Assembly (NCBI GenBank): GCA_025449115.1
Contig: JAHLKC010000068.1
Coordinates: 124,001 to 188,000 of the forward strand
DNA: 64,000 nt
Origin: Chytridium lagenaria
Taxonomy: Eukaryota; Chytridiomycota; Chytridiomycetes; Chytridiales; Chytridiaceae
Reading direction: 5' to 3'
Within the stretch, counting starts at the first letter, position 1, and every line of letters starts with the position of its first letter. The notes under the pieces were generated by a model, which was not told where the DNA came from, did no database searches, and was given only the letters and a program-made list of their open reading frames with translations. The position numbers were made by a program, and so were the translations under genes. This document shows positions 41,401 through 63,429 of the stretch, piece after piece.

Positions 41401-42630
41401 TATTTTAAAAAAATTTGTGCCATAAAAGTGCGAAGAATGGAATCATTTCCGCGTTTAAGAGCTGCGCCGTACAAGAGCGAGGGGAAAGGAATAGAATTAT
41501 ACCTGCGTTCCATCATTCGCCACTCCAACCACATCCAAAATTTGCACCCACCCCTCCTCCGAATACTCAATATTCGTCAACACTCCCGGCTCCCCATTCG
41601 TCATTTCGTCAATATCGCCAACAGTGCTCACCCCGCCCCCCATCTTTGGCGGCAAACTCTGTCCCGTGATATTACAATTCATCACCGTCACAGAAAAATA
41701 CGGCGTGATGAGTCGTCCATCCATAATTTCCGGAGAAATTCCGTCTTCGGGAAACACGACAATGCCTTTATGAGGCCCCTCGAGGTCAATGGGGGTAAAT
41801 GTACCAGAGAAGAGAACTTTGGGAGGGACGGCACTAAAATATAGCGGTCAGCGCCAAATTGTATTGTGACAACGTACCCTCCGAAAAGTCTGACGTCCAT
41901 AACAGCGCAAATGTAAATCATGTGGTATCCTTCCTCGAGATAAACGGCCGACCCTGATGAATGCGAATACCCATAAACGTTTGCAATAAACGCCCTATCA
42001 TCAATCTTGAATGACACCACATGCATGAAACTCGCAAGGTAAATTCCTGATTTCGGAACATGGAATTCACCCCTAAAATACGTTGCATGATGAAGCGACG
42101 TCCACCCTAAAAATCTCGGTTTAGATAAAAACAAAACTAGAGAAACATTCCATACCGAATGGATCTTGGTTGAATTCCCACCGAACAGAAGAATGTCTGA
42201 CAGGACCAACGGTTTGGTCTTGGTTTGTGCGAATCTTGGACCATTTGACGAAACCCCCGTCGGCAAGTTCAGAGGGATACCTGTCAGTCTGAGAAAACGG
42301 GAGATTCTCGAACCCGCCTTAACCAAATAAATATACAAACGATGAAAGTTGGTTACCGTAAGCGCTTAAAGGGTCTGTTCCGAGTTCACGAGCGCCTATC
42401 GCAAAGGGGCCGAGTAACTAGAGAGTGGGTGGTAAGTTGAGGGGGATACCCAGACATGAATGTAGAAAAGCGGGACTTACCTCCCATTCGACGGGGAGGA
42501 GAGGGGTGTTGGGGTCACCCGTGTTAATGGGTAGGTCTTGGTCAAAGGCGTTTTGAACAATGAACTGTTCTGCCGCGGCCAAGCATGACGGTAAGAGGAG
42601 GAGAAGGCCAAAGAGACCTCGAGACCGCAT
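38485..42630 (-). CDS. Secreted alpha/beta serine hydrolase with S9/prolyl-oligopeptidase-like catalytic domain
   Basis: Start ATG 42630 gives a signal peptide (MRSRGLFGLLLLLPSCLAAA). The N-terminal region (LLGPFAIGARELGTDPLSAY; ATYFRGEFHVPKSGIYLASF; VYLEEGYHMIYICAVMDVRL) looks like beta-rich accessory domains. The hydrolase domain shows AMARPPKKACSYGGKPSCPV, then FDWHGPSFKNVEMAVIYLSH, the nucleophile elbow LVYTGHSNGGQGAWWMTSHH (Gly-His-Ser-Asn-Gly), an acid at GGNDDNVPP and a histidine at VPGQGHWFEGVV, a complete Ser-Asp-His set. A further C-terminal domain ends VPFRTGLMVPDYMVVGDEYG and GYWSNK at the stop (38485). There are more than ten short introns. The protein is far larger than a minimal S9 enzyme. 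The substrate is unknown: peptidase and esterase are both possible. Confidence 0.82.
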
Positions 42631-42757
42631 GGCAACGAAATTTGGTAACAGAAATTGTCACCCCCGCTCATGTCCAGACAATAAATATGAAGGGGGCAGC
42701 TTTACGTGTAGTTATTCGTTCTTTATTAATTACAATCGTCTTTTTCTAGCAGGGTAT

Positions 42758-44065
42758 CTACTCCTTCTTCTTATTGCTGTCAGTCTTCTTTGCAGGTCTT
42801 GCCTTTCCTTTGCGAGATACGAGCGACGGTAAAAGTCGATAAAGAGGAGGAGGAAGTGCCGTTGATGGCCATCGAGAAGAGGAAGGCGTTCCAGCCAGCA
42901 CAAGATTTGGTGTAGTGAAAGTAGACATACGGTTACTGAGGAGGAAGGACATAGAGATTGGAAGATTGTCCGGAAGTCAAGTGTTTCTATTTTATATGTT
43001 AGAGGACGGGTTTTGTGTTTTCATTGGTACGTACCTTAAACCAGACGTTTTGACTAGCGAGGAAGCGTAGTAGTAGTAATACCTGTAAAGTGTAATTTAG
43101 AATGTGGAGAAGTAGTAGGTTTTCTAAGTTCAAGATTTTTAAGCTTACATGAAGACGTGAACAAGCGTGTTGGCCATCATACCAATGCTGCAAAGGAATT
43201 TTTTATCAGTACGTCATGATAATATACCACATTGCTTATCGAAAAAACGATACCATATTGGAGCCAAGTCCAGACCATCAAGATCACAAATGCATGATGG
43301 TACCAGTGCAGAAAGATAAGAGGTTTCTGATGATTGTTCAAGTCAAGAGATTAGAGCTTAAAACCGGCGAAATAATTATAGAAAACATCATTACTTTTTC
43401 AAAACCAAGATGACAGTGTCCAAAAGCTCGTAGAATTTACTAATGTAGTAAATGTACATGGTGTAGTAGAGAGGGCCTTGCACGTTTGCAGCTTCGGTCG
43501 TGCAAAAGACTTCATCAATACCACGGGTCTATCACATTTTTAAGGCCATTATTAGATTCAAAGGACGAAAGCGGTGTCTTCTTTGAATAAGTTTAAAGGT
43601 GATATGCACTTACGTATGCGATCTTGGCAATCTCGGTGATGGTACCAAGGAACATGGCGAGTGACCAGAGACAGAGGATCATGTTGTGCGCAGCAGTGAT
43701 TCCCGTTAGCTTGAAAGGCTCACGACCGCTCATGTACATCTAAGTTGCAAGTGTTAAATGTGGATGAACATCGATATTGAGTGCTGATGGATTACCCTGA
43801 GTCCAATGATTGTGCTAAAGTAAATGACCCAGGCGATGGCAATGACCTATTAAAATATGTTAAACGTGTGTCAGTGATTGTAAACAAGGGTACCAGATGA
43901 ATGGGAATTGAATGAATGAATGTTAATTACCCTCAGATTCGACAACGGAGTTGTGCCCACAGCCCATCTGAACCCAAACGGTGACCATAGCTGCTCCCAT
44001 TCCCACTTTGTGATATCGAGGTCAAGCGAGAATGGACCCGTAAGAAATTCGGTGATGTAGTCCAT
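42758..44065 (-). CDS. Very-long-chain fatty acid elongase (ELO/SUR4 family)
   Basis: ER membrane 3-ketoacyl-CoA synthase of the elongase complex. ATG 44065 starts MDYITEFLTGPFSLDLDITK. Membrane segments follow: AIAWVIYFSTIIGLR, HNMILCLWSLAMFLGTITEI, then the family block YYISKFYELLDTVILVLKK, the histidine box HWYHHAFVILMVWTWLQYG, ANTLVHVFM with YYYYASSL, and YTKSCAGWNAFLFSM. Exons of 40-140 bp are separated by short introns at about 43869-43931, 43741-43797, 43533-43612, 43298-43385, 43195-43253 and 43085-43147. The tail is basic and ends NKKKE, fitting a KKxx ER-retrieval signal. One A appears missing at the donor near 43408 and further single-base breaks affect the last exon, so the C-terminal 70 residues are approximate. 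Confidence 0.9.
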
Positions 44066-44465
44066 TTCAATTTGACTTTATCCCCTTCTCAGTTTTGAAT
44101 CGCGTAAAGCACCGTCGTTTGCTGTGTGTGTATGCGGACGGATGGATGGGATGTACCGATCTAGTTTGTGTAACTTAAATTTTTCCGCATATTATTATCC
44201 ATTCTGTTCGGACTCGGACGTCATTCAGACATCAGATATCGTTAAATAGTTAATACTCACTGACACCTGTACTGTAGAGGTACATATTGATAATTTTAAA
44301 GCTTTAATATACGCACATAGTAATATATAAGGTAATAAAGACGACAACTGCACGTAAATAAAAAAGTACACTTTCGAATCATTGCGGTAAAGATCTTTAT
44401 TAGCATTTTAAGTTTCCATTAGGTCCGGCGGGTACATTTTCTCTATACGAGCGCGCTGCAACAAC
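44066..44465. other. Intergenic
   Basis: AT-rich 400-bp interval upstream of the elongase start. Nothing else supported. Confidence 0.5.
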
Positions 44466-45421
44466 TTATATATTCCTCGTAAGCATACTGGGCCGTCCAC
44501 TGGCGACAGCAGTCGAAGTGCTGCTCCTCAGAGCCTCAGCATAAGACATCTTAAGAGGAGCCTCGAGAACAGGAGCTCTTTGCGGGTGGGCAAAGTGTAC
44601 TTGACGCAAAACGAATGGATGGGCCTTGCTCTCTGAGATTTGGGTTGGTAGAGGCGCGGAGGAGGACGGAGGATGGGGTTTTTACAGTCTTACAGGGAGA
44701 AAAGGGCGGGTTTCCGGGCATCGGAGGGGTAGGGTGGTCGAGGATTTGAGAAGCGGTTGGGGAAGTTGGCGTTTCAGGCGGGGTGGGTAAAACGTGTTCT
44801 TGATAGGGACGTCTTGATGGATCGAGTCAGTGATGGGGATCGGGTTTGTGGAAGCAGCAGCCTTCCTTGTGACAATCGCAGCGACTTCTTCTTTAGAAAG
44901 GAGCACAATAGGCGCTTCCGCATTCGTTTTTTTGGTAGAAATGGTTGGGGGTTTACAGCACCTGCCTTGAGGCGGTTGGGCAGAGGCTTCGCTGTCGTAA
45001 AAGTTTCGGGCTTCGTGGCCGGAGCTTGTGAGGAATGGCCGTGGACACGTGAGTACCGACGACGTATGCGTAGCTAGATCTCCGACCAGCGTCGATGTCG
45101 GAGACAAATGCGGTGAGTCGAATGTCGGTAGGTGGTGAGAGCAGCGAAAAGTCTGCAGGCTGCGGACGGTGCGACTGCAGTTGAGGTAAGTAATGGAAAA
45201 GAGTGGATTAGTTAAGGGAAGAGGAGAAGGGAGGTAAAAAGGAGTGAGGTTTCGATGAGAGAAGTGAAGCTCACCTTGGCGGGTGCATTATAATAGGGGT
45301 TGGCACGGCGGTGAAGCTCATCCAGGGCGGGGCTAGGGCGAGGGGGTAAGAGCCAGCTGGTTTGCTGGGCCGTGAGGTGTACAGTCTGGGGCACACGGTG
45401 GTGATGAGCAATCTTGGTCAT
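44466..45421 (-). CDS. Small hypothetical protein, Ser/Pro/Thr-rich
   Basis: Proposed start ATG 45421 (MTKIAHHHRVPQTVHLTAQQ), with exon 1 ending NPYYNAPAK before an intron at about 45183-45274. The second part (SHRPQPADFSLLSPPTDIRL, VSDIDAGRRSSYAYVVGTHV) passes into lysine- and proline-rich sequence (SKEEVAAIVTRKAAASTNPI) with at least one frame break. The C-terminus appears to end KMSYAEALRSSTSTAVASGR and a stop at 44466-44468. About 290 residues. No domain is recognisable; composition is that of a disordered regulatory or RNA-associated protein. The exon-1 splice and natural-looking ends support a real gene. Confidence 0.45.
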
Positions 45422-46440
45422 GTTGAGAACAGGTATATGCGTGTATGAAGTGAAGATGAGAGATTTGGAGAGGGATCGTGTCAGCTATTTATGTGCGTGG
45501 ATGTAAAAGATGTTCTACATTGTAAACAAACTTGATTCGCTGTAAATGAAGCTTGTAAATTCCTTTGTCGCGTTCATCTCACACGAACGTTATTTTGTTC
45601 GCGTAAATCCTCACATTTTTGGTCTCCTCATCCATCAGTGATTCATGAGACGTTAACGAAACTTCTGATACGTCTGATGTTATACCAGCTGTAAATCTTA
45701 AAAAACATCCTTTGTCGCGCTCCGATAACACATTTGCTTTTAATTCGCGTTAAAGTGTGAGAGATCACCTCACTGAATTATAAGGCTGAAACTGTAGTGT
45801 ATTTTCCTGTCCATAAGATGTTGAGATTGGTTGGTTGGTCTCTGAGCATGATGTTCATTTGAGAGCGGATGGAAAGTTCTAGAGGTCATGCAGATGCTTG
45901 AGACACGTTAAAAAAATGGAGCTTGATGACGCCAGAGAAAATAAAAACCACTCTGATTACGCGCCTTTAGTCGTCTCCACTCCCACGTCTATGAATTACG
46001 CGTATACGCACGTAATCACCCTAGTGTAATTTAGGAAGAAGTCGTAATTCCATGTTTCATGTATTGATTAATGTGTAAAGTTTAGAACGTACCTACAGGT
46101 TGTATGGAAAAAATATTAGTATTTCTGTATTAGTATTATCACTAGGTATAGGTAAATAGGTATATACCTTTTTATTTATTAATATATAGGTTATCAGGTT
46201 ACAACCTGGTATCACAGAATAATATCACAGGTGGATACGATTGTCACACAAGACAAAGGCTTGTTCCCACTTGGTTTCCACTTGTCCGTCATAATTTTAC
46301 ACACATCCCTTTGAGTGACCACAACCTGGGTAAATACAAATAATAATTATATGGAAAAACTGCCTTTTTTTATGTAATATTAAAATAAATAATAGTAAAA
46401 AATTACTTTGATAATTAATAACTATTAGAGAGAGAGAGAG
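45422..46440. other. 1-kb divergent intergenic region, AT-rich
   Basis: Separates the small hypothetical and metallopeptidase genes and presumably contains both promoters. A GA dinucleotide run (46427-46440) ends exactly at the plus-strand ATG. No other structure seen. Confidence 0.5.
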
Positions 46441-48133
46441 ATGGAAGACGGCGTCTCTAACAGGGATGCTGTTGCTGCCATGATCCCTGATGGAGAACCG
46501 TCGATTCAGGAGGCGCTAAAAGATAATACTAAAGAACAAGTCTCAGGGACAGATAACAGTGACTCTGTTGAATTGGGAAAAGATGTCAATGAAGAGTCGA
46601 CTGCCAGTACACCTCCACCCATCTCAATGAGTTACAGTGACGTCCCTAGATACGATCGCATCTCTCCTTTCGACTCTACTGTCGTGGAATCATGGGATGC
46701 TGGTGATGCTCTTCCTCTTTCCACCGCCCGTCTGCTTGCATCCCCCATCGGACAGTCCACATCAACGACTCCCGCCAACGCAACAGACTCCAACCCTTTC
46801 AGATTTGCATTCACCTGCACCGCCAACCAAACTCTCTGTGATCTTGCAAAGACTGCATTTGTTTCGGCTGGATACCGCATTGGAAAATCTCTGCAGATAT
46901 CGCAACCCATCATTGTCTCTGCCAACTTTTACTCCTTCTGCAGGGGTCTGGATGGCAAGTCTTCATGCAGCAATTCCACCGCTTCAAGAGCTCCCGTTGG
47001 AAGAGCATCTCCTTCCGCTTACTTTGCTGCAAAACCAAAGTCTTCCTCCTCCAAGATGTACTACTTCTACCCTCAAGCCTTGGTCAAGCAGCTCTCTGTG
47101 GATGCTTCACCGACCTTTTCTTCCACCGATATCCTGGCCGAGTTCAACAGTGACGTCTCCTTCTACTACGCAAGTGTGAGTGTCATTTAAATGAATCCAA
47201 TCTGGTTGCTTTTTTTTAATGATCATTTTTCTAAATCTATACCAAATATACAATCCAGTCTGGAAGACCAATTGGTCCAAACGAGATTGATCTCGAGTTT
47301 GTAATTGCTCACGAGCTCACACACGGTCTCGGTTTGACACTGGATGGACAGATTACTCTACCTTTGGTCAGAGCGACCCTGCTCTAGCCCTTCCTGCCAA
47401 TACCAAACCCTTCCTGGCACCTGGATTCTTTATGCAAGGACCCTCTTCTGCTTCTGCTAACGTCATCAACTGGCAGCCCCTCGCAGCCTTTGACTCGGTT
47501 GTAGCGGACTCTACATCAAAGGAATCTCTTGCTGCCATTGGCGAGCGTCTCTTCCGTGCTTACCCAGGCTCAAAGTCTTTCCCTATTCCGCTAAAGGATT
47601 TCATCCAAGGCTTCGCCACTAATAAGGATGCCCTCGACGCAGGGGCTTTGGTTCAGTCCATCGTCACCCGAGGAAATGCCTCCCTCACACTTAACACTGC
47701 CGCCGACCCCAACCTCTCCCTCAAGCTCAACACCCCGAAAACCTTCCAACCAGGAACCTCTATCTCCCACGCCGACTTTAATACCTACTTTTTCTCCCCC
47801 GATTTTCTCATGATCCCCGCTGTCGGAGGCTGGGCGGGGACCACCTTGGATGGTATCATTCAAAACGTGACCACTGGCGTCCCCGCATCAGCTCTCGGAT
47901 CTCTCGGTTCTGGGGGTATCCTACGGCCTAGCACCCTTGCTGTTCTTAATGCCCTTGGCTGGAGTGTTGTCAACCCGTCTTTTGCAACTACCGCGGCACC
48001 TAGCCTTGAACTGAACAAGAATCCCTCCACCACGTTTTTTGATTCCTCCGCGCCAACCTTCTCCCCACTTTCCATTCCTCTCGTTTCCATCGTCCTAATC
48101 TTTACGCTTCTTTTCCAGCGCCTTTTCGTTTAA
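46441..48133 (+). CDS. Putative zinc metallopeptidase with HELTHGLGF motif and hydrophobic C-terminus
   Basis: ATG 46441 starts MEDGVSNRDAVAAMIPDGEP, an acidic stretch without a signal peptide. It is followed by FRFAFTCTANQTLCDLAKTA and several Cys and N-glycosylation-like NxS/T sites. An intron (about 47174-47258) precedes EIDLEFVIAHELTHGLG, a zincin-type HExxH at about 47309-47323. One T is missing at 47333-47335, after which TGWTDYSTFGQSDPALALP continues in the new frame. The C-terminal region (GILRPSTLAVLNALGWSVVN) ends in a Ser/Pro segment and a hydrophobic tail (IPLVSIVLIFTLLFQRLF) typical of a GPI-anchor signal. A surface-anchored protease is inferred. Lack of a signal peptide suggests an unrecognised upstream exon. 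Fungal proteins with an HExxHGLGF motif form an uncharacterised zincin group. Confidence 0.68.
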
Positions 48134-48344
48134 ACCTTTCCTTGAAAAACAGTTACTTTTAGCTCTCTTTTAGGCGGTTCCTTGAAGAAAGTTTAGACAT
48201 GAATAAATAATGAACCTTTGAAAATTTTCATCCGAACGAGGTTTTCGAACGTTTTTGCTTCCAACTCGCAAAACAACCTCAGCACAGACCAAAGAGTACC
48301 CCATCACCAACTCACCGCAACCCCACGCGAACCACATCTCTCGA

Positions 48345-51304
48345 ATGGGTGTGCCCGGTCTCTGGAGATATCTAGAAACGCCCGACACATGCACATCCGT
48401 TCCTCTCCCCCTTTTGTGTGCAGACCGTCTTCAACTCCAATCGCACCCTAATACACCTACATCCATGGAGCGTAGCAGGGTTCTACCCGATTCAACGGCC
48501 TTTCGAGCCCATAAGTCGTTGCTGAACTTTGGGGCGACCAATACAGCCAAGATAAGGAGTTATGCGGAAGAAGGGGCGAAGATGAGAGCAATGTTGGGGG
48601 TGAAGGAGGATATGGGTGCGGGGTATCATCCGTTGAGGGTTGCGATTGATGTTAGGTAAGTTGGATAGCGTTAGGATCATTGTAAAAGCTGTGGTTTTGA
48701 AAGAAATAGCCTCGTTCAGTGTATAAACTTTTGCTTTGTTTGTAGTTGTATTTGGTAACGGGTCTTTTTTTACATCTTCCTTTTTGAACAGTGCGTGGTT
48801 TTATCCTTCAAAGATGGTTCCGTCTGAACAAGAATCAGGAGGTGGGTTGGATAAGCTTTTTTGGAACTTTTTTTCTGCGAGGTGTTGCTGAGCTCTAAAG
48901 CGTCTGTCCTGTTTTTCTAATGACTTTATATTTTCAGGCTCGAATCCTATAATCAGGAATGCGTTTTTCAAATGCCTCAAGCTCGTCAAACTTGGTATCA
49001 TACCCGTAAGTCCCATCAATCCTTCATCGCTACCACAACATCACTCGTTTCTCAACATTTTTACGTTATTGGACCTTTCCCTTCCATCATCTACTGGGTT
49101 ACTTGCTGATTGCTATCATTTTGGGGAAAAAAAGGTGTTTGTGTTTGATTCTCTCACTCGCCGACCGAGCGTAAAGAGGACAGCTATGTTCAAGTCCGCC
49201 GGCGGGACTCACCCTGAATTGTTAGAACAGCTTCGAAGGATGGCCAAGTTGTTCAAATTTCCTGTATTGGATGCAGCAACGGAAGCCGAGGCTGAGTGTG
49301 CCGTGAGTACACCCCCATCAATACCCCCAACTCTCCCTCATACTAACCCTCGCCACTTTCCCGCAGCGCCTCAATGCCCTCGGTATCGTTGACGGGGTTT
49401 TCTCCAACGATGTTGATTGCCTTCTCTTTGGTGGCCAGATTGTGTTGAGGTCTACTCTTGAGAAGGATGCGGATGTGGATGATGGGGATGTTGTTAGGAC
49501 GCCTGTGAAGAAGAAGAGAAGGGTTGATGGGAAGGCTGCTGCTCGTCGGGTTGCCAATTTCGTGGACGTGATGAGTGCTGACAGGATTGAAAGTGGGGTT
49601 GGGATGAATAGGAATAGGTTGGTGGCGGCGGCGATGTTGGCAGGATCGGATTGTAAGTTGATTGCTTGGTTTCGCCTTTCCTTGTTTTTCTTGTTTCTAG
49701 GGATCTCTGCTTTTGAGCCTAGTCGTTGAATGTTTGAAATTGAAATGGATATAGTCTGTTCGCTTCTTTTAAGCTGGCTCTCACTTTCTTTTGCTGCCCT
49801 TTCTAAATAGACACCTCAGGTATCAGTAATATTGGTACCAAGACGGCTTTTGAAATCGCTCGAACTGGTCTGGCTGACTCTGTCATGGACGCAGCTCTTG
49901 GACAGGATTTCGAGGCTCTCTCCATTGCCCGCGATGACCTTGAAACCGAGATTCGGACCAACCGATCTAAGAAACTACGCAGCCGGCGCGATGTTTCCCT
50001 CCCCCATGATTTTCCTCAACCCGACGTGTTCAAAGCCTACATGGACCCCGTTCTCGCGCTTGACGGTAATGAGGCGCTTGGAGGGGAGATTGAGGATATG
50101 TGCCGGGAGTGGATGGAAGGGAGTTGGATGTGGGGATGAGGGGGTTTATGAGGATGGTGTTAAAGTGGAGTGAGGAGACGACGGAGGCAAAGATGGTTTC
50201 GCTTGTAGTGCCGGCTTTGAGGAATCGCAGGATGAGGATTGAGGCACATAAAAGGGCGATGGGGTTGACGGAGGAGATGTTTGAGGAGGTTGAGAAGGAT
50301 GCTGAGAGGAGGGTTGAGGATATGAAGAAGGGACGGAGGAGTTTGTCGAGGTCTTCGTCTGTAGTTCCGGAAGGGAAGATTACAAATTTCTTTGCGGTTA
50401 GGAAGAGTAGTAGTTTTACGGCCGGGTTGGTGAGGGTTAAGACAGAGGAGGGGGAGCTTGGGAGCCCGTCCGCGTCTCCTTTTGTGGAGTCACCTGTGAA
50501 TGGGATGATGGATTCGACGCTTGTGAATGAAGTTGTGTCTGTGAGGGTTTCAAAGGAGGGTGTTGAGATGGCTAAAGTGAGGGTATCGCATGAACTCTTC
50601 GCGTCTCGTATCCTTGGAAGCTCTACCTCTTCTTATGAGAGTCGATCGTTGAGCAGCACCAACCCGTTTCTCACAAACCCTACTGCGAATGACGAAGACG
50701 ACGAGGACGAGGCGGTTGAATCCGATTGCGAATGGATCGAAGCGTCCATTGCAAGAGTCATTGCCCCCAACGCCTTTTACACATTCAAGGCTCAGTATGT
50801 CAGCAAATACCCCAAACGTCGACCCGCCACCCCTAGTACGAAGCCAAGCCTTGTGGACTTGGGACTCCTCAAGTTCACAAGCCTGTACCTCGAAAGGGGG
50901 CGTTCCAATTCGCCCTTGAAAGCATCACCCCATCCTCGACGTGCGGGACACCCACGACCCCAAAGTTTGGTGCACAGCGAGCAACGTTGGAGGCTGAGAG
51001 GGCGTTTTGGGATAAGCCACCGATTTCGGGGGAACCTGCGGTGATGTCGTTGACGCCTTATGTGAGAGATGAGTTTGAGAGCGATGATGATGAACGAGGG
51101 AAACGGCGGTGGGAGGAGGATGACGAGGAGAGTGTGTTGAGAGCGCCGAGGAAAAGGAAGGTGGCGGCGACGTTGGAGGATATTAGTTATAAGGTGCGGC
51201 CAGAGTCACCTTTGATGGGGAGGGGTCTGGATGATGAGTTTGAGGAGTTTGATGGGTTTGGGGGATGGTGGGGGAGAGGGGGGATGAGAGAGTTCGGTCT
51301 GTGA
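48345..51304 (+). CDS. XPG/Rad2-type structure-specific nuclease, GEN1/Yen1-like
   Basis: Nuclear flap or Holliday-junction nuclease. ATG 48345 starts with the invariant N-terminus MGVPGLWRYLE. After about 85 non-conserved residues comes HPLRVAIDV, spliced to SAWFYPSK (first metal-binding Asp). Then FKCLKLVKLGIIP, VFVFDS, and the XPG-I block AATEAEAECA with its metal-binding glutamates, RLNALGIVDGVFSNDVDCLL FGG (metal-binding aspartates), and the helix-hairpin-helix region VAAAMLAGSDYTSGISNIGT. The SNDVDCLLFGG form favours GEN1/Yen1 over FEN1, EXO1 or XPG. The C-terminal 400 residues are Ser- and acid-rich, including KGRRSLSRSSS and a PIP-like GKITNFFAV. Introns occur near 48655-48791, 48940, 49003-49134, 49303-49366, 49653-49809. 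Frame breaks near 50130 and 50950 are required. Confidence 0.85.
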
Positions 51305-51686
51305 AAGCGTTGTTTGGGAGTCCGTTTTAGTTTATTTGTGCGGTCCCCTAGTACCCAGTATACAAACCCAAAGTCTTAGGCTTTCTTTCCTTCTTTTTTC
51401 AATTTTTTTATAACACCTCTCCCCCTGCTATTGATTGTGTCGACGTACACTGCCCGCCCGCCCGTAAACTTTTTTTGCTATTTAGGAATCCCAATTCTTG
51501 GTGTTTTGTGGATATTATATTTTTTTTGTCTTATCCTTATTGCTTATTGATCACCCCCTTTTACCCGACTTACCCTTTTTTTATTCTGTTGTTGTTTCTT
51601 TTGAAGAATGCGTATATTGAGCACGCTGTGATTCGTTTGTTTTCTTTTTTATTTACTCTTGTATATTGTGTGTAAGACTCGAACAA

Positions 51687-51706
51687 CCCCCCCCCCCCCC
51701 CCCCCC
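51687..51706. repeat. 20-base C homopolymer
   Basis: Uninterrupted run of 20 C. Length in the true genome is uncertain given the homopolymer errors seen elsewhere. Confidence 0.8.
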
Positions 51707-52520
51707 AATCCATCTTCCCCTCCCACCTTGTTTGTAATAGCATATTATCTTTTTTTTATCGATGCTTCTTTTGATTCCCCCCAAATTCCCACTTGTATTG
51801 TGACTTATTATTTTTTGTATCTGGGTTGAATGTGATATTTGAGAAGAATGATGATTTCTTTTTTATTCTTTTTTCTGGATTATGTTGGAAATTGGCTATC
51901 GTGGTGTTGGAGTTTGTAAAAAACGAACGCGTCAGTGTCTCTAAGGACCAGGATTGCAAGTTTACGTTAATCATCTATGACCGTGATGAATTAATAACCT
52001 ATGGCGCGCTACGCAGTGAGTATGATAAAGGAAAGTCGACATAGACGTACACTTTCAACCTAAACAATAAAAAATCAAATACATGGAAACTTCTTTGCGC
52101 ACTGTTTCAAGATGTGAAACGCCGATGCTCCTTAATGGTTTACATGGGGCGAGTTTTTCGACGACTGAAAGATGTATGCGCACTATGTGGAAAAAAAGAA
52201 AGGTCGACATCTTATTTTTACAAAGGAAAACGCAAAGGGGCGTTTCCAAAAAACAACATGACGATATGACCTCTGGGGCGGTTCAAACAAACAGAGGCAA
52301 AGAAAGGATAGGTATACACAAGAAAAACACGTATGTAAAATACACGAAAAATCAACAAGATAATGTGAGGGCCCGAAAAGGCACGCCATGAACAAAGGTC
52401 GTGCTGAATAAATACGAATGAGACCGCTATGGTTCAAGAGGGCGGGAATAAATAAAATGGCCACAAATCAAGGGCGGCGACACGGAAAAGTAAACAGTTT
52501 TTCAAAAAGCTTACGAAGAT

Positions 52521-52610
52521 AAAAAAAACAACAAAACAAAACAAAACAAAACAAGGGAGGAAAAACAAGAGAAGGAGAGAGAGGGAGAGAGAGAGAGGGA
52601 GAGTGAGAGA
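52521..52610. repeat. (AAAAC)n followed by (GA)n-rich simple repeats
   Basis: About five AAAAC units (to about 52554), then a purine-only GAGAG/GGGAG tract (about 52569-52610). Confidence 0.8.
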
Positions 52611-53333
52611 TAGAAAGGTATGAGTGTGATTTGTACATAAACAAGTGTCGACAACCGCACACACGACAAGACAGGGGCACGACGCGGTGGAAAAGCTCGT
52701 CATGTCGTTTGGTGATAAGCTTTCGAAACGGTCAGTTGGCGCTCAAACAATAGTTGGGTGGTGTGAGGTGTCGATGATAACGGCGGAGAAGGTTTTCTTT
52801 GGGTGGAGTAAAATGGAGGTGTCGAGTTTGATGGTTTGCGAAAGATTGAGGAGAAATTGATGGATAGTGAGTTTGGGTTGAGTGTCAATAAGCGGCGACG
52901 TAGATACCAGTTCGGGAAAGTAAGAGAGGGGTTAAAAGAATTGGGTAGGTGTGAGTTGGGTAGGTGTGAAAGAGAGTTAAAAAACAATCAACCATCCTAA
53001 AGCCAAAGAGAGAAAACCCATAAGTAATAAATAGGACCACGTTACACCACCAGTCAAAGGCACCAAAGAATCTCCTGAAAAAATCTCCTTAGAAGCAAAC
53101 ATCCACCAAAAGAATAAAGAAATATGACTAAAATACCCCACAATAGACAGGGGATAACGAAGGGGAATTCCGACACAACCAAATCCTTCAAAAGAAAATC
53201 AATAAACTACAAATTCCCAATATCATCAAAATAAAAATAGAATGAACCCTTAAACAACGGAAAAAAGTCAAAGGATGCCCTAACGTCCAAAAAAAAAAAG
53301 AGAAGTTCTGGCCAAATTCTTCCTGGTCATCCT

Positions 53334-56300
53334 TCACCTAAGCTCCCCAAAAGTCCTCCCACCCGCACACTCCAAAGCAGCACGTCCAAACTCGCCAGCA
53401 CCGCATCCCTGGCCAACATTTCCGAACCCAGCAGAACCCTGCGGCGGCAAAGCAAGAGATAAGGTATTGGTGCTATTCGGCACCACGCAGTACGAAGATG
53501 TGCCAGAGAGCGAAGCAAAACGTATCATTGGGCGGGGACTTGGGAGGACAAAGTTGCAATATGCTGGTTCGAATCAACGGAGTGTTGCCCGGGAAACGGC
53601 AAGGCCAGGGCGTAATCCAATGGCGAAAGATCAGACAGCAACATGTCAAGGACACCATCGCCAACGTCTTGAGAAGGGCCGGGCAAGGACTCTGTTGCAT
53701 TCAAGTTTGAAAGCGAGTTCATGCAGTTAACGAAGGCGGGGTCAATTCCATTTAATTTCCCTTGCGTGGGCTGCGGTTAAAGAAGGGAGATAGGTAACAA
53801 TATGAGAGATATTAATTAAGGATTCTACGACACAACAAATAGTAAATAGGTACTTACGATAAAACTCTCCAACACAGCCTGAGGAACTTCCGCTGGCGTC
53901 GAAATGGCCCGCTTTTTCCTTCTGCAAGTAGCAAAGACGCGAAGCGAGATGTCGTCTTGTGCTGCAACTGCAACTTCTTGGTCCAAGCCCACCTCATCCT
54001 CTTCATCTACACACGGAGACCATGTCGATGACTGCCCTGGCGTAGAGACTCCACAAGAGACCATGCCAGAACGCTCTCCTCCCATCGTGCGAACCTTCGG
54101 ACCGCGCCGAGCAACCGCCTGAGCAATAGAGGAAGCCAGTAAAGGGGCTGGAGAACCACCGTGGTCACCGCTGATGTTCTGAGGCGACGAACCCCAAGAC
54201 TGCCCAGGCAAAGGCACCAGCTTGGCGTCGAGTGTGGAGGGAGCCGGAGACCAGAAGGGTGGTGGAGGCGGGAACTGCATCACTGCACCTGGGAATGCCT
54301 GGAGGCTCTCTGCAGCCTGAGCGGCCTGTCTATCCATCGGTGTGTCTTGCTTGGGCGAAAGTGCCGGCGTGACATAGTGACTAGAAACGTCGAGCTTTGG
54401 CTTGGGGGCAACGGCGACCGAGGCAGGAATTTCGATAACACCCTCCATTGCAGAGTTAGCCCGAGGAGTAACTGGGTCTTGAACGCTCTTTGTAGCTTCA
54501 GTCACGCTAGTAGGAACGATCGAAAGACCAGGAAGGGACTCAAGTATCCCTTCCATTCCAGAAGATGGCTCCGAGACTCCCACGACGTCTTGATTTCCCG
54601 CACCCCTCACAGCGCCCGGGAAAATAGGAGCCTTTTGCAAAATGAAACAGATTAGTTCAAATCACAGCTGGTGGCGAAATAGAATTACTTACCGACTGGT
54701 GAGAAGAGTCAAAAGGGATGAGGTCTGGCTGTTGCGCGTTTCCAGCTTAATGTCTGATTGCCGTCTTGCGCACAGGGTGGACCGCCAAGGGCCACAGTCT
54801 CACAGTTGCTGATGCCCATACCGACGTCATTAATAGAAGACTGAGTCAAAAATAATAGATTTGAACGGTTAGTTTAAACGAAACAATAGCGCTGTATGAA
54901 GAATTAAATTAAGAAAAAACTCTTACCTGATGTTGTTGTGACAAAAGCATGGATAGAACACCATCAAGCTCATTTGAATGCTTAAGATAAAGAGCCTTCT
55001 CCTCTTTCATGGACTGGATGACCGCTTCCGCAGAAGACAGGTCGACGATCAGGCGCTCTGTTTCCTTCTTGATCTCATTGACGGAGGCAAGCTCAGCGAC
55101 CAAACGCTGATTCTCGATTTGAATCTTCTCCAACTCACGGGACTGAGCCTGGATCTGACTCTTCAGGTTGGTCTCATTCTCCTGCAAGCTCTTCAGCTTG
55201 ACAAGAATCCTGGGATCATTCTTGAAATACTTGGGCGAGGTTGAATCTCAACGGAGCGCGAGGTCAACGAATTGGTTTGACAGTCAATGGACGTGACGGA
55301 CGCGGAAACCTGGCAGCCCGTTGAGTTGCACGTGACTGTCTCCGTTTGCACAGACGTGGATGGTGGTGCAGCAGTCTGAGCTCCAGAGGTAGCTGTGGCT
55401 GGTAAGCTGATCTGAGTAGCCACGGAACTTGCAGTGACGGCCGAATCACAGTCTTCAAGAGTCGACGTGCCAACATTTTCAGTCGTGACCGTTTCTCCAA
55501 CCTTTTTATTGGCGGTGGATGTTGATGTTGACGTGCTCCTGTTCCTTTTGTTGATGGCAGGGGAGTTCTTCACCCTGAAATCGGGACAATTTCGGAATTT
55601 TCTTTCTTTGTCGGAAGTCAACCCTCCAAACATCCCCAAGAACCCAAGCTCCTGAGTCGGAGTGGAGCTTTCTTTCATACTCGAGTACTTGAGGCCGTTC
55701 AAACTCACAACCAGGTCATCGATGGAAGCATTCTCTGCTGGTGCAGGGGGATGGCGCGATTCTATCGCGTTGATTCCCACTGAGACCACCGTCGCCTCAC
55801 TTTTAGCTTCAGCCTCAGCCTCAGAGTTTGCAGACTCAACAACGACAGCGCTGGAAGCTTGAGGAAGGACCGGCTCAGCGTTATCAGCCGTAACTTCGGG
55901 AACGGTGACCTTAAGGGAGACGACATTGTTTGGCACCAGCTGAATCGCTGGGGTGACCTGGATCACCGCACCGTTGGAGAAGCCGGACTTTTCCATGGCA
56001 ATGCTGACGCTGCCAGTATTTGAAGCGTCAACAACCGCATCACTCTCCAAAATCTCAGGCCGAGCAGTGGTAGTGACCGCACACTCGAGGTGGGAGCTTG
56101 GGGATGTAGTGGACCCTTGGGTCTCTGGTACAACGCTAGAGGATGCCGACTCGTCAGGCCTTTTTGAGGCCTCAGAAATTTTGTTCCGGAGTGATAACCT
56201 TGACTTCCACATTAGAACCCTTGAACCCAGTCTCCACCTTCACTGGAGTCTTCAACGCTTCAGCGTTTTCTGTCTCCGCACGATAGTCCTCGCTTGAGGC

Positions 56301-57648
56301 TTCCTCAGGTTCAGTAGCTTCATTGCCGCCGGCACTTGTGACGTAGGAGAGGGGACTGGATTGTTGAGAACCGTCGACTATCTCAATTGGAGAAAGACCA
56401 ATGTCGTTAACAACAACGTCCGTCTTCTGGAATTTTTCTCCATCCGACGTCTTTGAAGCCAGCACCGTCTCGGTGACGGTAACAGCCTTCTTTAAATCAG
56501 CAAGCTTTGATGGAGCGGCAGGACGGAAACCTCGAGAGACTACAGGAACATGTGACTTGGTTGATGCGATCCCCACTGATGCAGGTTGGAGGGCAGACCT
56601 GGCCTTGAGCGAAGAGGTTGCAAGAGGCTTCCTTACCGGTTCAGCTGTAACAATATGCTTAGGAGCTTCCGTTTTCACCGCTTTTCCCTCCTCTGCCGCC
56701 TCCTTCGATCGTATCACCTTATCGGCAACAAAGATCTTTGAAGGTACGGCAAGTTTCGAAAGGGAAGCCTTCGACGAAGCAGGCGGAGGGACAGCTTGAT
56801 GCCTCATGGGAACGTTTGGCTTGAGGTTGGTGGACGGCATAGAAGCGGACTTGGCGGTCAGGACAGTCTTGGAGTGATGTGCGGCCATAGTCTCTTTAAC
56901 AGGTGCGGCTGCACCAACTCTCTTCAAAGCATTTTCTCCCGACCCTTTCGGTCGATGTCGCTCGTCTTCTGAACCTTCCTCTCAACTGCCGAAGTACCAG
57001 CGCAAACGCCAACCACTTTCTCTTCAAGATGGGGTCGACCGGTGCTGCTCTGGGTCGGATTGGGGTGCTCCAAGTCTTTTCTGACGGTGCTGCAACATTA
57101 TAGTTCCAGGCGTTCTTGAAGGGGGGTCGAAGTTCCAAAGCGTTTGCGGCTGATGACGAGGAAAGAGCGTTCTTGCGCTCGTCGGCCTTTGGAGGCGTCT
57201 CTTGCCTGTTCGCCCAGTTCTTCCTCGCCTCCTCCTTGGTAGGGTGCATCTGACCTCCTTCACCACCTTTGCGGGCCCTGCGCTTCTTGTGGATGTGGGG
57301 AGAATGCTGGGTGTGGGTTTGGTGGTGCTGCTGCTGCGCAGGCGGGAGGGGAGAGGCAACTCTTGGCTGGATACTTTCCTGACCCGGCCGCAGTTTGTTT
57401 GCTGAAGACGAGGAGGTTGAATGCCCAATGTCTTACCGTCTGGTCGTTCTTTTAGAATCTGACGGGGGGCTTAGGGATTCCGGTGATGAACTCATTGGGC
57501 TTTTGATCTTTCCCTTGTCGACGAGAGTGGTGAGAGCAATGGCTCTGTCGGCATGGAGTAATGGGCCAGTTTCTTCAAGTCAAATGCTCAGCAGCTTTCT
57601 CGCTCTCAATGGAATTCTCGACGGAGGGAACGGAATAGTTGACTCCAT
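53334..57648 (-). CDS. Large disordered protein with one coiled coil, unrecognised
   Basis: Start taken as ATG 57648 (MESTIPFPPSRIPLRARKLL); a longer frame nearer 57428 begins with TTG. The first 250 residues are basic and Ser/Pro-rich. The middle is Ala/Val/Thr/Glu-rich low complexity (for example PVVSRGFRPAAPSKLADLKK). A compact coiled coil of about 90 residues spans 55187-54909 (LKSQIQAQSRELEKIQIENQ, then RLIVDLSSAEAVIQSMKEEK). After an intron, another disordered part contains TRP/SP motifs and a basic ATCRRKKRAIST patch, and the C-terminus reads DVGDGVLDMLLSDLSPLDYA before Gly-rich sequence. About 1,250 residues, with several one-base breaks (for example near 56930, 57235, 55200 and 53525). 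The basic patches and acidic/Leu segment would suit a nuclear scaffold or regulator, but no known domain is visible. Confidence 0.6.
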
Positions 57649-58466
57649 GGTAGGGTCTGCATGGGATCTGTGGTGATGACTGCGTTTGCAGAGTCCTTAA
57701 GGACGGGGTCTGTGACGGGGAAGACGTCTCCCCCGATCATTGTTTTCTCTCTGTATGTTGGGATACCGTTGAAAGCGAAGGTTGGAAAAAACGGAAAACT
57801 ATTACGGGGGGAGCCAGCAGACTTTTTATCCAGAAAAATACCAACTGCGGATAGGTGGTCAGGCTGGACAGGTGGACGGAAAAGACTTTTGAGTGAGATG
57901 AAGCGGAAGTTGAACTGAAGGCATCGTCTTTGTATTTTTTTTTATTTTGATCTGACATGTGCAATGCATTTTTCCCCCTGTGGTTTAAATTATATTCTTT
58001 TCCGTGTCGTCCTTTTATTTCGAGATTTTCTTGTTCAAAGTTCTGCTTAAAGTACAAACTTACCCGATTCTATTAATAAATTTGAAAACATTGTCGTTAA
58101 GAATTTAACGTTTGTGTTTTCTTTCAAAAAACAAAATAAAGTAATGCATAGAATTCAAATGTAGAATCGACCAGGATGATCGTAAGTAGTGAAATTCTGC
58201 CAGTCGAGATAAAAAAAAATATAGCAAACTACAAATATGAAAAAAAATATAATTAACAAATATGTAAGCGATAAAAACGGTCTAGTATAGACAGGTACAT
58301 GGCCTGTAGTCAAAAACATAAAAGAGTTGGTAAAAGAATCAAGTAAGAACAAAACAAGCAGACCGTCCGACAAAAATATATGTATACTAATAACCACATA
58401 AAGAAAACGGGTCCAAAACATAGAATACTCTGTCGGGAAAAGAGTAAAATCCCACTAAAATATCTT
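57649..58466. other. Intergenic
   Basis: Upstream flank of the disordered-protein gene and 3' flank of the TIR-NACHT-WD40 gene, A-rich near 58200. No gene supported. Confidence 0.5.
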
Positions 58467-61400
58467 TCACACATGAATAATAACCACAAACCCTGCCGGC
58501 GTTCCAATCGCCACAATCCTGCCCTGAAAACTCGTTAAATTTCCCCTCAACGTCGCCGGCACCCACAACCTCCTCGTCCCATTCTCTTTCCGGTCCATCA
58601 TCCATCCATCCTCCTGTAACACCCAAACCGTTGAAAACGCGCCTGGTCGAATCACATCCCCAGGAACAGGTGACCCATGTTTCTCCTCCGTCTCCGTCTC
58701 AGGTGTCTTAATAGCATCTCCAGTGAGGTTACTCACAGACAGCTTTTTGGCAACCGCCACACCGTTTACTGATACAACGGTAGGACGCCGGAATAAAAGA
58801 GGGGAGCCTTGTCTCCTCGTTGACGAATCATGGAACGGCTCCTCTTCATCGTCATCAGGCATCCCACCAGAAGCCCCTCCATCAGTTAATCCAAGCATTT
58901 CAGCTTTCGCCACTCTCCTTGCGGCTTCCTCCCAACTTCCCACATTCAGCGAACGCGTTTCAATGACACGTACAAGCCTGCCAGTTTCCGCGTTCCACAC
59001 GCGCACGGTCGAATCAGCACCTGCGGACGTGACAAACCGTCCATCGACGCTCACAGCTAGAGCGCGAACGGTATCCCCATGCCCGTCATCTTCCGCCGCA
59101 GCCGCGCGTAACGAAAGCGGCGAAAGCGGTGACGTAACATTAGCTGGTGTCCCGGCAGCTTTCGACGATAAAGCCGTTGGCAATAACATCTGTACAGAAG
59201 TTGGTAACATCAAACCCCCAGAGTTCCGCGCTGGATCGCATTCCCATACCCTCACAGTGCGATCATCACTCCCCGAAACAATGCGTCTTCCATCAGGTGA
59301 CACCGCCACGCAATTCACGCTGTTCGTATGTCCCTCCAATATCTGCACACATCGACCCGTCTCCATCTCCCAAACCCTCACTGTGGTGTCTTTAGACCCA
59401 GACACGACCCATCGTCCATCCGGACTCACACAAACAGCATTGACAACGTTCGCATGTCCATCGAGAATACGTACGGCTTTTCCGCTATTCATATCCCAAA
59501 TCCTAACAGTCCGATCCTCTCCACACGACACAATCCACCGTCCATCAGGCCCAACCGCAACCCCACAAACTGCCCCCGTATGTCCCTTCAAAGTCCAAAC
59601 GGTCTCCCCATTCTTCGCATCCTGCACCAAAACACTATCCGCTCCACCACCTAAAATCACAATTCTCCCACCATCAGGTGTCATAGCTAATCCATTCACA
59701 CCCCACGTCTTCCCTTTTGCGCTCCTCACACAACGTCCCGTCGCCGCATCCCACGTTTTTACCATGCCATCAGCACCCCCAGAGACAATCCACCGTCCAT
59801 CCGCACTACACGTCACATTCCACACCTGATCTCCGTGTCCCTCCAACGTTCGTGCCAGCATCCCTGTTTCAGCGTCAAACACACGGACAGCGCGATCGTG
59901 GCCACCACTGACGATCCAGCGACCATCCATGGATACGCAGACGGTTGAGACGGTCCGTGTGTGTGCGCGTAAGGTCCATAAGCAGGGATGCCATTGTTCA
60001 GGGGTGCCACGGACGACTCTAGGGACGCGTCGGAATGATGGGGAGGACGAGGCGAAACGGTGGAGACGTGGAGAGTAGGTGCGGTAGAGGTGGGACGCGG
60101 GGGGTGAGAAGGGGAGGGCGGAGATGTAGATGTGGTAGGAGGAGGCTGTGAGGGGGTAATAGAAGTCTTGGAGGAAACGTTGAGCGTCTCGGACTAGGTG
60201 TTTTGTTTGCGCTAGATCGAGAGGTGGGTTGGGGGAGGCTATAGATTGTTGGAGAAGCTTGGTGATAGATGCTGGGACGGGGCCAGAGTCGTCGGAGAGG
60301 GAGGCGGCGGTGAGGGAGGGAGAGGAATTAAGTGAAGAAGGTTTTGCTTTATTTGCAAGGGATGCAGCGGCTGTAGCGGCGTTGGCGAGGTTGCGTTGGA
60401 AAAAGGTCATGACGGAGGAAAGAGCCGTGGCGGGTTTGATGGAATGAAGGTACAGCGCGAGAGCGCGAAGAGAAATAAAGGCGGTGGAACCAATGGATGA
60501 CATCAGGAGAGATGTTCAAGCCATTCCAAAAGTTTTTCAGAACAGACGAGACAGGTGAGTTCTTCAACCGCCTTAAGGATTTTAGGATCCACTGCGGCAG
60601 CCATCGCAGCGGAGGCAGCGGCGGATTGGAGAGCTGGGGTACCGGGAGTTGCGGTGACCATTCCATTTGGGGCTGCAACGACGTCGGCTGCAGTAGGAGA
60701 ATCTGATATCATTTGACCCAGAGCGAGAAGGTGAAAACACCAGTGTTTAATCGCATATCGGAGTTCATCAGATACTTTCCCCTGAAAACGGCCCTCCAGG
60801 TCTGGGATTTCAGCGTTAAGCCATGCAACAGGATCCTCAAGATCCAATGGGTTAGGTCGAAGGCCTGTCATGAGAAGAACCATGCAGCGAAGGGAAAGAT
60901 CCGCCTCAGCCTTTGCGATGTTGATACGGAACCGCTCATCCACACATCGATCAGATGTTAAAAAGTCTTTAAAATCTGTATGAGAAAGTCGGAGGCGAGG
61001 TGAGGGCAGAGGGGCTGGGGTAAATCCGATGCCGTTCATGTTGGCGCTCGCGTTAACGGAAGTAAAATCAGATTCATCGCAAAATTCTACAAAACTTGCA
61101 ATTTTGTACAGTGTTCTTCTAGTGTCGACTAAGCTCATGTCAAGGAGTTTGGAGAGAACAGGGATGCTAATGGGTTCTTTGATGACGAGCATTGCGCCCA
61201 CCACGCGTCGGAACATCTCAACCTCCGTGTAATCACCTGCTCCCAACCTGGACTCAAGGAGTCCATGGTAGACTTTATCCAGTCCAACTGGGAACGTCTC
61301 GAGTGATGCCAAGAGCTGTGCAGGGCTGGTTGCAATGCCACCAGCAGTTCGAAGTGGTTCGAATGCGAGGTGAAGCCACAAAAATTGACCCAGAGACTTT

Positions 61401-63429
61401 CCCGTAAGGATAGCAGATGCCTCATGATAGTCATCTTCGGTGATAGCCGGCAAAATAGATCTAATAAGCGAGCCAGCGTAAGCAAATAGGTCTTTTCTCT
61501 GCATCATCCCAAACAACTCCACTTCCGCCGGTTTAAGAGGTGCAAGTTGCTCTTGAATGCCTTGATCCATTGCTGATGTAAAAATAAATCTAACTTCTAA
61601 CGGAAACTTATCCCATTCACCCACGATAGCATTAATAAGATCCTTTCTGGGTTCCACCGGCATCGCGTCAATCCCGTCAATAATAATAACAAGCGTATCT
61701 TTTCTCAATTCTCCAGCCTCAGCAGCAGCTACAAGTGGGTCTACCAATAACTTCCTAATCCTCTGCGGAGTTGACGTCTCTCTATCCGCCACATCTACCG
61801 CATTCCCACAAACACTTAATAGCGTCTCCTTCATACTCTCCATCTCCAGCGCCAATCTGTACGCCAGGGTGTTAATGATGGTGGATGGAAGTAAGCGATC
61901 AGAATGATCAGGGCGGATCTGGAACCACGATAACCTCACATTTCTTGGTGGAGTGGTGCACCATCGAGCCATTGCAACAGACTTTCCGTTCCGAGGGTCC
62001 GACGAGCCATAAAGCTTTGTGAGCGATACGATGGTCTTTTTCAACCCAGCTAGAGAGTTGATCGTGAAGCCAGACTCGAGTGGCACGGTGGCACTTTTCA
62101 GCAAGATGTTCCATTTCTTTGGCGTGGCCAAGAGGTTTTAGCCATACACGTAAAAGTTCGAGGCCCTTTGGGACAACTGGCTTTTGTTGGTTTTTGAAGA
62201 GAGTTGGGACGTGCGGGTATTGGGGAGCTAAGACGGAGGAAGGCGGAACCACGTCTTGACCTTGTGGGTGTTCCAGGGGGGGAGAAATGGGAAGGGTTGG
62301 AAGTGGTCGATAAACGGTTCAAAATTTCGGATGGAAGAAGTATAGAGGTTCCATCGGTAAACTTTGTTGAGAGCCGAGCCTTTGAGGGCGACGGCAGTTC
62401 GGAAGCTCCTGCTGCGACAAGGATGGACTTGAGGAGATCCTCCATGACGGCTTTCCATTCATCTGCATCCCTGTCAAACGTTTCGGCAAGTTGCAGACCA
62501 ATATGCCCTGCGGTCAGAATCTCTGACCAAGACCGCTGAAGGCGCGATGTGATGACAGGGACAAAGGGTCGACGAATCTCGTCCGCGTAGAGCATTTCCT
62601 TTTTGGAAATCGGATCATCCTATGCGGAAGAAGGTGTTTGAGTACGCAACCCAGCAATACATAATTATTACCTCATAGGATGGAGTGACGAGTGGGCAGA
62701 AGATGGCGCATTCAGAGATGAGAAACGGATCATACGGCTTGGTGTCTTCAGTAGCATCCACAGTTGCCACCTCAAGGTCCAGACTCGCCAGGGAAGCTCT
62801 GATTTGTTGGCAAGCTCATGATCCACAGGACTATTGAAAAGATGTCAGATGCCATGCACAAAATGTTCTGTCCCTATAAAAAGCAATCATCCACTCACTT
62901 AAAACTCAGAAACACATCGTAACGAATATCCGGTGTTCCAACAGAGACTTCTTCATTCTCATATGGCGCTGCATGGAATGCGTCAGATTCCGTCTGAAGA
63001 ACTAGAATGATCATGATGCCGAAACCTACCAGCAAGCTCGGATTCTTCGAGATCCTTCAACAGATGCGAGTCAGCAGTAGGGAGGGCTTCATCGTTTGCC
63101 GATGGCTCTGCCTGAAGGCGCCGCGATTGATGAGATGAGGAAGAGCTGATGATCCGCCTAAAAAAACCGATGGTAAAGGAATATTAGGGACATCACGATG
63201 AAGACAGTTTGAATAGAAAGAGTTGATCACCATTCGGCATTGGAGCATCTGATATTGAATCTGTATGGTCGTGAATGTGGTAAGTAATAGCAGAGCCAAA
63301 TGAAGACTGAGTACCTCTGTTGAAAATGAGAGAGAACTTTGCTTCAAGTGATGTTGATGCCGCAGATGGCTTTGGCCTTGGAGACGAGGCGGGTGACGAT
63401 GAGAGGGATGACGGTGCGGCAGGTGCCAT
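58467..63429 (-). CDS. TIR-NACHT-WD40 NLR-like receptor
   Basis: Predicted intracellular STAND receptor of about 1,570 residues. ATG 63429 (MAPAAPSSLSSSPASSPRPK) starts a disordered leader. The TIR domain (about 62935-62450) shows IRYDVFLSF, then across an intron (62831-62898) VDHELANK and ASLASLDLEVATVDATED, CAIFCPLVTPSYE, and across intron 62620-62671 ISKKEMLYADEIRRPFVPVI, whose KKE aligns with the NADase glutamate. A Pro/Ser linker leads to the NACHT module: ALWLVG plus DPRNGKSVAMARW (Walker A), LVIIIDGIDAM (Walker B) and a helical C-terminal part ending LLEWLEHLS at 60503. The WD40 block (about 59990-58950) has at least seven blades with DGRWIVSGG-type cores, then a C-terminal segment to 58467. 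A one-base loss in GG at 60506-60507 splits NACHT and WD40; restoring continuity gives the linker EHLS-LMSSIGSTAF usual in fungal NACHT-WD40 proteins. A further one-base break lies near 62795, inside the TIR region. Two separate genes is the alternative. Confidence 0.85.

Follow-up and report, generated by a model that had tools for sequence, protein, structure and literature searches.

Plant TIR-type NOD-like receptors (TNLs) are arranged in the order TIR, switch and sensor, and Apaf-1, which carries NB-ARC and CARD domains, likewise couples a switch of the STAND class (signal transduction ATPases with numerous domains) to a WD40 sensor. Section 17 of PMC9815663, with Daskalov, Dyrka and Saupe 2020 among its sources, reports TIR domains in the NOD-like receptors (NLRs) of plants, bacteria and the Chytridiomycota. 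In the relevant section of PMC4986451, the 2014 survey gave no NLR matches for chytrids, and HET is described there, as in a section of PMC12881547, as a likely distant relative of TIR. Here, we describe a multi-exon gene of Chytridium lagenaria, on the minus strand at positions 63429 to 58467 of a 64,000-nucleotide stretch of DNA (contig JAHLKC010000068.1, positions 124,001 to 188,000; hereafter the window, with positions counted from its first letter), which encodes a TIR domain, a NACHT domain of the NPHP3_N type and a WD40 propeller in this order. The gene belongs to an uncommon class of immune-type receptors that has been described in fungi before, the TIR-NLRs of Chytridiomycota, and we put the probability that it encodes an NLR-type STAND receptor acting in immunity or cell death at about 0.6.

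We regard the TIR-NACHT-WD40 anatomy itself as practically certain. When the frame is read through, the window TIR obtains 27.5 bits with Pfam TIR_2 (PF13676, E 4.9e-6; curated cut-off 28), the NACHT piece 29.7 bits with NPHP3_N (E 9e-7; cut-off 24.8), and the last piece an E value of 2e-70 with Pfam WD40. The Pfam search of the window gave no match to PF01582 and left the Pfam NACHT family below its own cut-off in the NACHT piece, and NCBIfam gave no match to the TIR and NACHT pieces. The closest relative in which the complete layout is seen is P0002 of Phlyctochytrium planicorne, a single predicted protein of 1481 amino acids (51% identity to our NACHT-WD40 query), in which TIR_2 reaches 35.4 bits (E 1.7e-8, above the cut-off) and NPHP3_N 60.5 bits. 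In a tblastn comparison, P0002 is collinear with the window gene, beginning at the TIR and running through to the stop codon (E 2.8e-41 for TIR exons 4 and 5, E 0.0 for NACHT and WD40), a match far above chance. An earlier reading of this DNA from its letters and open reading frames (the sequence-only reading) had placed a TIR start motif, a NACHT and a WD40 propeller on one strand in one gene-sized unit, which the domain order, the Pfam scores and the collinear ortholog bear out; of the Pfam profile checks it proposed (TIR/TIR_2, NACHT and WD40), WD40 matches strongly in the window, the NACHT is recognized there by NPHP3_N above its cut-off, and TIR_2 passes its cut-off in the ortholog. Two features by which fungal NLRs are recognized, an NPHP3_N domain above its cut-off and C-terminal WD40 repeats, are found in the window; a third, the Walker A motif, is cut by a frame change there but intact in P0002 as GPSGSGKS. 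This is very likely a real receptor-type gene.

The gene opens with a start codon at 63429 in exon 1 (63315..63429), which encodes a low-complexity N-terminus ending in LEAKFSLIFNR and resembling the start of P0002 (SSRLEEKLSLIFNR) in a weak tblastn match (E 0.18); its junction with exon 2 is out of frame as drawn. Exon 2 (63030..63157), flanked by AG before and GT after and with a weak match to the P0002 N-terminus, encodes a linker upstream of the TIR. The TIR domain (62422..62924) extends over exons 3 to 5, with the start motif RYDVFLSF in exon 3 (62899..62968) and the middle of the domain in exon 4 (62672..62830). Exons 3, 4 and 5 are separated by a phase 2 intron (62831..62898) and a phase 0 intron (62620..62671), both with GT..AG ends at exactly the coordinates that the sequence-only reading had named, and just past the phase 0 intron lies a KKE motif, which contains the putative catalytic Glu. 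Exon 5 (58467..62619) encodes the remainder of the TIR, a linker, the NACHT (61574..61999, with Walker A at its start and IIIDGID as Walker B), a helical part and the WD40 propeller (58941..59984, ends approximate), for which Pfam gives six stretches and cutting by eye seven blades.

To place the gene among its relatives, we used the portion comprising linker and NACHT, as far as the propeller, as a protein query and retained 16 relatives at E 0.001 among 8000 scored candidates, of which the first six are all from Chytridiomycota. Besides P0002, these are P0001 of Phlyctochytrium bullatum (55% identity), P0003 of Irineochytrium annulatum (39%), P0004 of Chytridiales sp. JEL 0842 (33%), P0005 of Cladochytrium tenue (36% over 63% of the query) and P0006 of Synchytrium microbalum (27%); the other ten comprise seven basidiomycete names, one name cut short and two nameless entries. 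The models of P0001 and P0003 start just upstream of Walker A and that of P0005 after the NACHT, too late to inform on the TIR. The NLR parts of both P0004 and P0006 open with a stretch resembling the end of a TIR, which suggests, by sequence similarity, the whole layout in two further species; in P0006, a TIR seems to end right before the NACHT, with 19 of 43 residues identical to a TIR from one of the TIR-SEL1 genes described below. We note that the P0004 gene model opens with an unrelated secreted-looking stretch, and that the P0006 model continues into a Sac1-type (Syja_N) domain, perhaps two genes fused in the model. The public name of P0001 and P0002, "POC1 centriolar protein A", is corrected by these observations: both are NACHT-WD40 proteins collinear with the window gene, P0002 sharing its TIR as well, and the name seems to mirror the propeller alone, with no tie to centrioles seen in these proteins.

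In a NACHT tree of 19 rows, which omits P0005 (its NACHT part being too short) and contains no bacterial set, four chytrid orthologs form a group with the window (100/100), and the separation of chytrid from basidiomycete rows has weak support (67/86). P0014, a metagenome protein of unstated origin that combines TIR_2, NPHP3_N and TPR repeats in the same order with another kind of sensor, lies on a very long branch. The closeness to chytrid proteins, together with chitin synthase and the radial-spoke family in the genome, agrees with the suggestion of the sequence-only reading that this is a STAND protein of an early-diverging fungus, and points most naturally to a flagellated true fungus related to Phlyctochytrium. 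Searching with the window TIR and linker gave no match at E 0.01 among 1781 candidates, with a query whose linker was joined at the wrong point, and the TIR and linker of P0002 retrieved P0002 alone at E 10 among 2681 candidates, such that wider TIR kin appear to be beyond the reach of this protein search.

The observed elements of the receptor reading are the domain order, the same layout in another chytrid, a Glu at the catalytic position of the TIR, and a higher degree of conservation in the propeller than in the TIR. With gap columns left out, the window and P0002 are 78% identical in the WD40 propeller (265/339), 55% in the NACHT (165/300) and 45% in the TIR (60/134), and blade pairs within the window propeller are 31-67% identical. 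A sensor that has changed less than its effector fits a fixed ligand or a guarded partner better than it fits hypervariable allorecognition, and this one species pair thus suggests a fixed ligand for the propeller. The strong conservation of the propeller makes that ligand a fair target for a pull-down. We picture the resting protein as a monomer in which the WD40 propeller would keep the NACHT shut. Binding of a ligand or guarded host protein to the propeller would open the NACHT, a presumed nucleotide-controlled oligomerization switch by analogy with its family, and several copies would then assemble, much as Apaf-1 does in its wheel or a plant TNL in its resistosome. The N-terminal TIR would serve as the output domain: brought together in this way, the TIRs would build joint active sites for the cleavage of NAD+ or a related nucleotide, and either the depletion of NAD+ or the reaction product would trigger cell death or a defense state. 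Ligand, assembly, catalysis and outcome are all steps that we infer.

With respect to catalysis, our alignments show that the Glu at the SARM1 catalytic position in helix C is kept in the window, in P0002, in the three TIR-SEL1 paralogs and in a TIR-ankyrin gene on contig C25. A profile built from the window TIR and four paralogs matches SARM1, RPP1, Roq1 and RPS4, with the catalytic KE aligned with SARM1. This match depends on the paralogs in the profile, since a phmmer search of the PDB with the window TIR alone recovered SAKe proteins and a few weak matches of mixed kinds but no TIR chain, and a two-row profile ranked TIR chains low. We see an even chance that the window TIR cleaves a nucleotide. 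Signaling by NAD consumption, as the sequence-only reading proposed, is thus possible as regards the catalytic Glu, but the neighboring Trp of the TIR NADases is absent.

A number of observations weigh against the receptor reading. Known TIR NADases carry a Trp four residues before the catalytic Glu, and this position is Ile in the window, Thr in P0002 and Asn in the TIR-SEL1 paralogs; P0004 has Thr in place of the Glu itself, at a point where its gene model is doubtful. Given the missing Trp and the Thr in P0004, activity across the whole group is not a given. The window TIR is divergent, as its score below the TIR_2 cut-off indicates, and with the two-row profile of window and P0002, TIR chains in the PDB obtain E 0.7 or worse (TIRAP being the best), below the unrelated SAKe proteins. 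A structure prediction of the P0002 TIR (AlphaFold, five-row alignment) is of no use here, its element order being TIR-like at a confidence too low for a fold assignment (mean predicted local distance difference test score, pLDDT, of 40). In this family, Walker B is normally trailed by a further acidic residue after DGID, and an Arg normally follows the sensor-1 strand; as read from the sequence, both are missing from the window NACHT, and by eye the NACHTs of three paralogs on contigs C8, C35 and C76 differ from it at both positions. The "full NACHT Walker A/B pair" of the sequence-only reading needs two qualifications: Walker A is interrupted in the window, and Walker B lacks its following acidic residue. 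Finally, the whole layout including the TIR is seen in one other species only, P. planicorne, and the assembled gene contains at least four frame changes in approximately 4.4 kb, leaving no complete open frame.

An alternative is that the TIR is a scaffold or adaptor only, of the MyD88 type, such that the assembled receptor recruits other TIR proteins, for instance TIR-SEL1 proteins, without cleaving NAD+. The absent active-site Trp and the Thr of P0004 point in this direction, as does the fact that the TIR is the least conserved domain, and the nearest TIR kin in the genome, the TIR-SEL1 genes, would be natural partners. Retention of the Glu in the window, P0002 and all three TIR-SEL1 paralogs, however, speaks against this alternative, and we consider a pure scaffold a tenable but less probable account of the TIR.

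The order of conservation is the reverse of that expected for a fast-evolving sensor, and the blade pairs do not show the strong internal conservation described for a considerable share of the repeats in fungal NLRs (in the part of PMC4986451 that treats repeats). Both points would suit a non-immune regulator, that is, a conserved STAND switch of development or stress-induced death that, like Apaf-1 or SARM1, responds to an endogenous ligand that does not vary. A guard receptor of a conserved host protein would, however, likewise have a conserved sensor, and the presence of four such genes with two TIR kinds in the genome looks like a receptor family; we consider a purely non-immune role tenable but less probable than an immune or cell-death receptor.

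A pseudogene of a once-working receptor is a further reading, raised by the frame changes, which lie at approximately 62.8 kb (in exon 4), 62.2 kb, 61.99 kb (in Walker A) and 60.51 kb (at the NACHT/WD40 join). As a control, we used one locus at which a family search had shown an HSP70 gene twice and split: two near-identical contigs, C47 (L065, 202700-205300) and C250 (L066, 25200-27800), both carry this one HSP70-family gene. Their 2589 aligned columns contain seven one-base gaps, split five to two between the copies, and a single substitution. Since true divergence would yield more substitutions than gaps, indel errors in the assembly are likely, and at this one-base-gap rate several breaks are expected in a gene of this length. 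We note that the C47/C250 pair is also a sign of an uncollapsed duplicate or haplotype. Assembly error is therefore the likelier source of the frame changes by this comparison, and with pieces of 544 and 682 amino acids still open and a propeller 78% identical to that of P0002, a dead gene is quite unlikely, even though the control covers one locus only.

The more unusual finding is a neighboring one: the genome holds several TIR-NACHT-WD40 genes with two kinds of TIR, at least one of them with a SAM domain in front. In the assembly (41.9 Mb in 356 contigs, the window lying on the contig labeled C68), we count 18 distinct TIR places, strong and weak: three each on C36 and C17, two on C6, and one each on C2, C8, C24, C25, C35, C62, C68 (the window gene), C76, C138 and C300. 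A TIR_2 score above the cut-off is reached at nine of these places, namely those on C36 at 102, 176 and 185 kb, those on C24 and C62 with neighboring matches added, and those on C35, C8, C76 and C138 after joining exons. Weaker cases are C25 (E 0.0013) and C2 (E 0.46, by eye like its neighbors), and those on C6, C17 and C300 were found via similarity to the C35 TIR (E 7e-6 to 4e-11), C300 being possibly a duplicate contig. Judged by these matches, TIR domains are not rare in C. lagenaria, and HET occurs at one place, on a contig other than that of the window. The statement of the sequence-only reading that TIR effectors are scarce in fungi thus agrees with the 2010 survey, in the relevant part of which PF01582 is absent from the fungi covered (PMC2939053), but not with the TIR-NLRs that section 17 of PMC9815663 states for Chytridiomycota, nor with the count in this genome.

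The partners of these TIRs are SEL1 repeats, ankyrin repeats (C25), apparent tandem TIRs (C24) and NACHT-WD40. The TIR-SEL1 genes comprise two on C36 (L023 and L024, SEL1 repeats recognized by eye), with an extended run of ARGSVVADKPAEHGSV-like coding repeats between them, and one on C138 (L025, Sel1 E 1.2e-62). Three further TIR-NACHT-WD40 genes, on C35, C8 and C76, bear the other kind of TIR (the DNMLLEWE kind on C8 and C76); we take the exons, close together on one strand, to form one gene in each case, which would make four such genes in the genome, the window included. The C35 gene (L033, C35:21000-30500, minus strand, approximately 7.4-2.5 kb of L033) encodes SAM-TIR-NACHT-WD40, with 21.1 bits for SAM_2 (cut-off 20.5) and 42.9 bits for TIR_2. 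In the C8 gene (L037/L043), a SAM is likely, as 13 of 30 residues in its second SAM exon are identical to those of the C35 counterpart, and in the C76 gene (L032) a SAM is only possible; Pfam SAM gave no match for C8 or C76, and supports C35 alone. The open reading frames of window positions 40000-58460 and of stretch L034, read by eye rather than by Pfam search, contain nothing recognized as immune-related. Elsewhere, chitin synthase matches lie on C59, C68, C92 and C157 (eight rows), those in the window being minus-strand fragments at approximately 3551-3978 (C68:127551-127978), and the flagellar radial-spoke family has one match in the genome.

Phylogenetic analysis of 13 TIRs clusters those of the window and P0002 with the three TIR-SEL1 TIRs (97/95) and assigns the TIRs of C35, C8 and C76 to the other kind; this tree has six open forks, and the program issued a long-branch warning. 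Both TIR introns of the window match the three TIR-SEL1 genes in position and phase (2 and 0), with splice sites assigned by eye and the L024 copy carrying a frame change of its own in the compared region. Because two TIR kinds occur on one NACHT-WD40 backbone, and because a TIR of the TIR-SEL1 kind seems to precede the Synchytrium NACHT, the sequences indicate that TIR and NACHT-WD40 were joined more than once, or that one TIR was swapped for another. The shared intron positions and phases also speak against a recent transfer from bacteria. Bacteria are known for layouts of the TIR-NACHT-WD40 type, but acquisition of the whole unit from such a bacterium, one of two origins that the sequence-only reading had offered, is highly improbable: 329 plasmid records do match P0002 (among the five matches listed, only in or around the WD40 part), and P0014 has TIR_2, NPHP3_N and TPR, but the intron positions are shared with the TIR-SEL1 genes, the nearest NACHT-WD40 relatives are chytrid and then mostly basidiomycete, and one pattern scan of prokaryote genomes, a weak test, gave 150 matching stretches and no TIR relative confirmed by tblastn.

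Should the activated TIR indeed cleave NAD+, flagellated fungi would join the organisms with TIR-based cell death, by way of a receptor built on the plan of plant TNLs. Podospora's HET-NACHT-WD40 allorecognition proteins could then be compared with a likely TIR-bearing forerunner. A broader proposal, which we consider unlikely, is that zoosporic fungi use TIR rather than HET as the standard effector of NACHT-WD40 proteins, with TIR modules exchanged on one backbone (a TIR of the TIR-SEL1 type in the window gene, and in its paralogs the other kind, preceded at least once by SAM). SAM-TIR-NACHT-WD40 would then be a single protein linking an executioner of the SARM1 type to a switch and sensor like those of Apaf-1, and would represent the ancestral state of the HET-NACHT-WD40 proteins of Dikarya. 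The literature titles and abstract beginnings that we searched mention no chytrid TIR-NACHT-WD40 or SAM-TIR-NACHT-WD40; most subscription journals lie outside this scope, and this is no proof of absence.

The closest known systems include the Chytridiomycota TIR-NLRs of PMC9815663 (section 17), with which the window gene shares both its phylum and the presence of a TIR in an NLR. HET-E/HNWD of Podospora have the effector-NACHT-WD40 layout in common with it, but the window gene carries TIR_2 in place of HET (Pfam HET has no match up to E 1 in its N-terminal pieces) and lacks highly alike WD repeats (31-67%). With SARM1 it shares the TIR profile match and the aligned catalytic KE, but the window gene continues into NACHT-WD40 after the TIR, and SAM-TIR is found instead in the C35 paralog; neither ARM nor SAM has a match in the scanned pieces of the gene, where the little sequence upstream of exon 3 was covered by eye. 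Plant TNLs such as RPP1 and Roq1 match the TIR profile and have the same domain order, but are built with NB-ARC and leucine-rich repeats (LRR) where the window gene has an NPHP3_N-type NACHT and WD40; neither NB-ARC nor LRR is among the matches listed for the window pieces (for the WD40 piece, the best 25 of 62 families), and in the NACHT part of P0002, NB-ARC reaches no better than E 0.13. Apaf-1, finally, matches the window in its WD40 part and shares the combination of a STAND switch with a WD40 sensor, differing in its NB-ARC and CARD domains.

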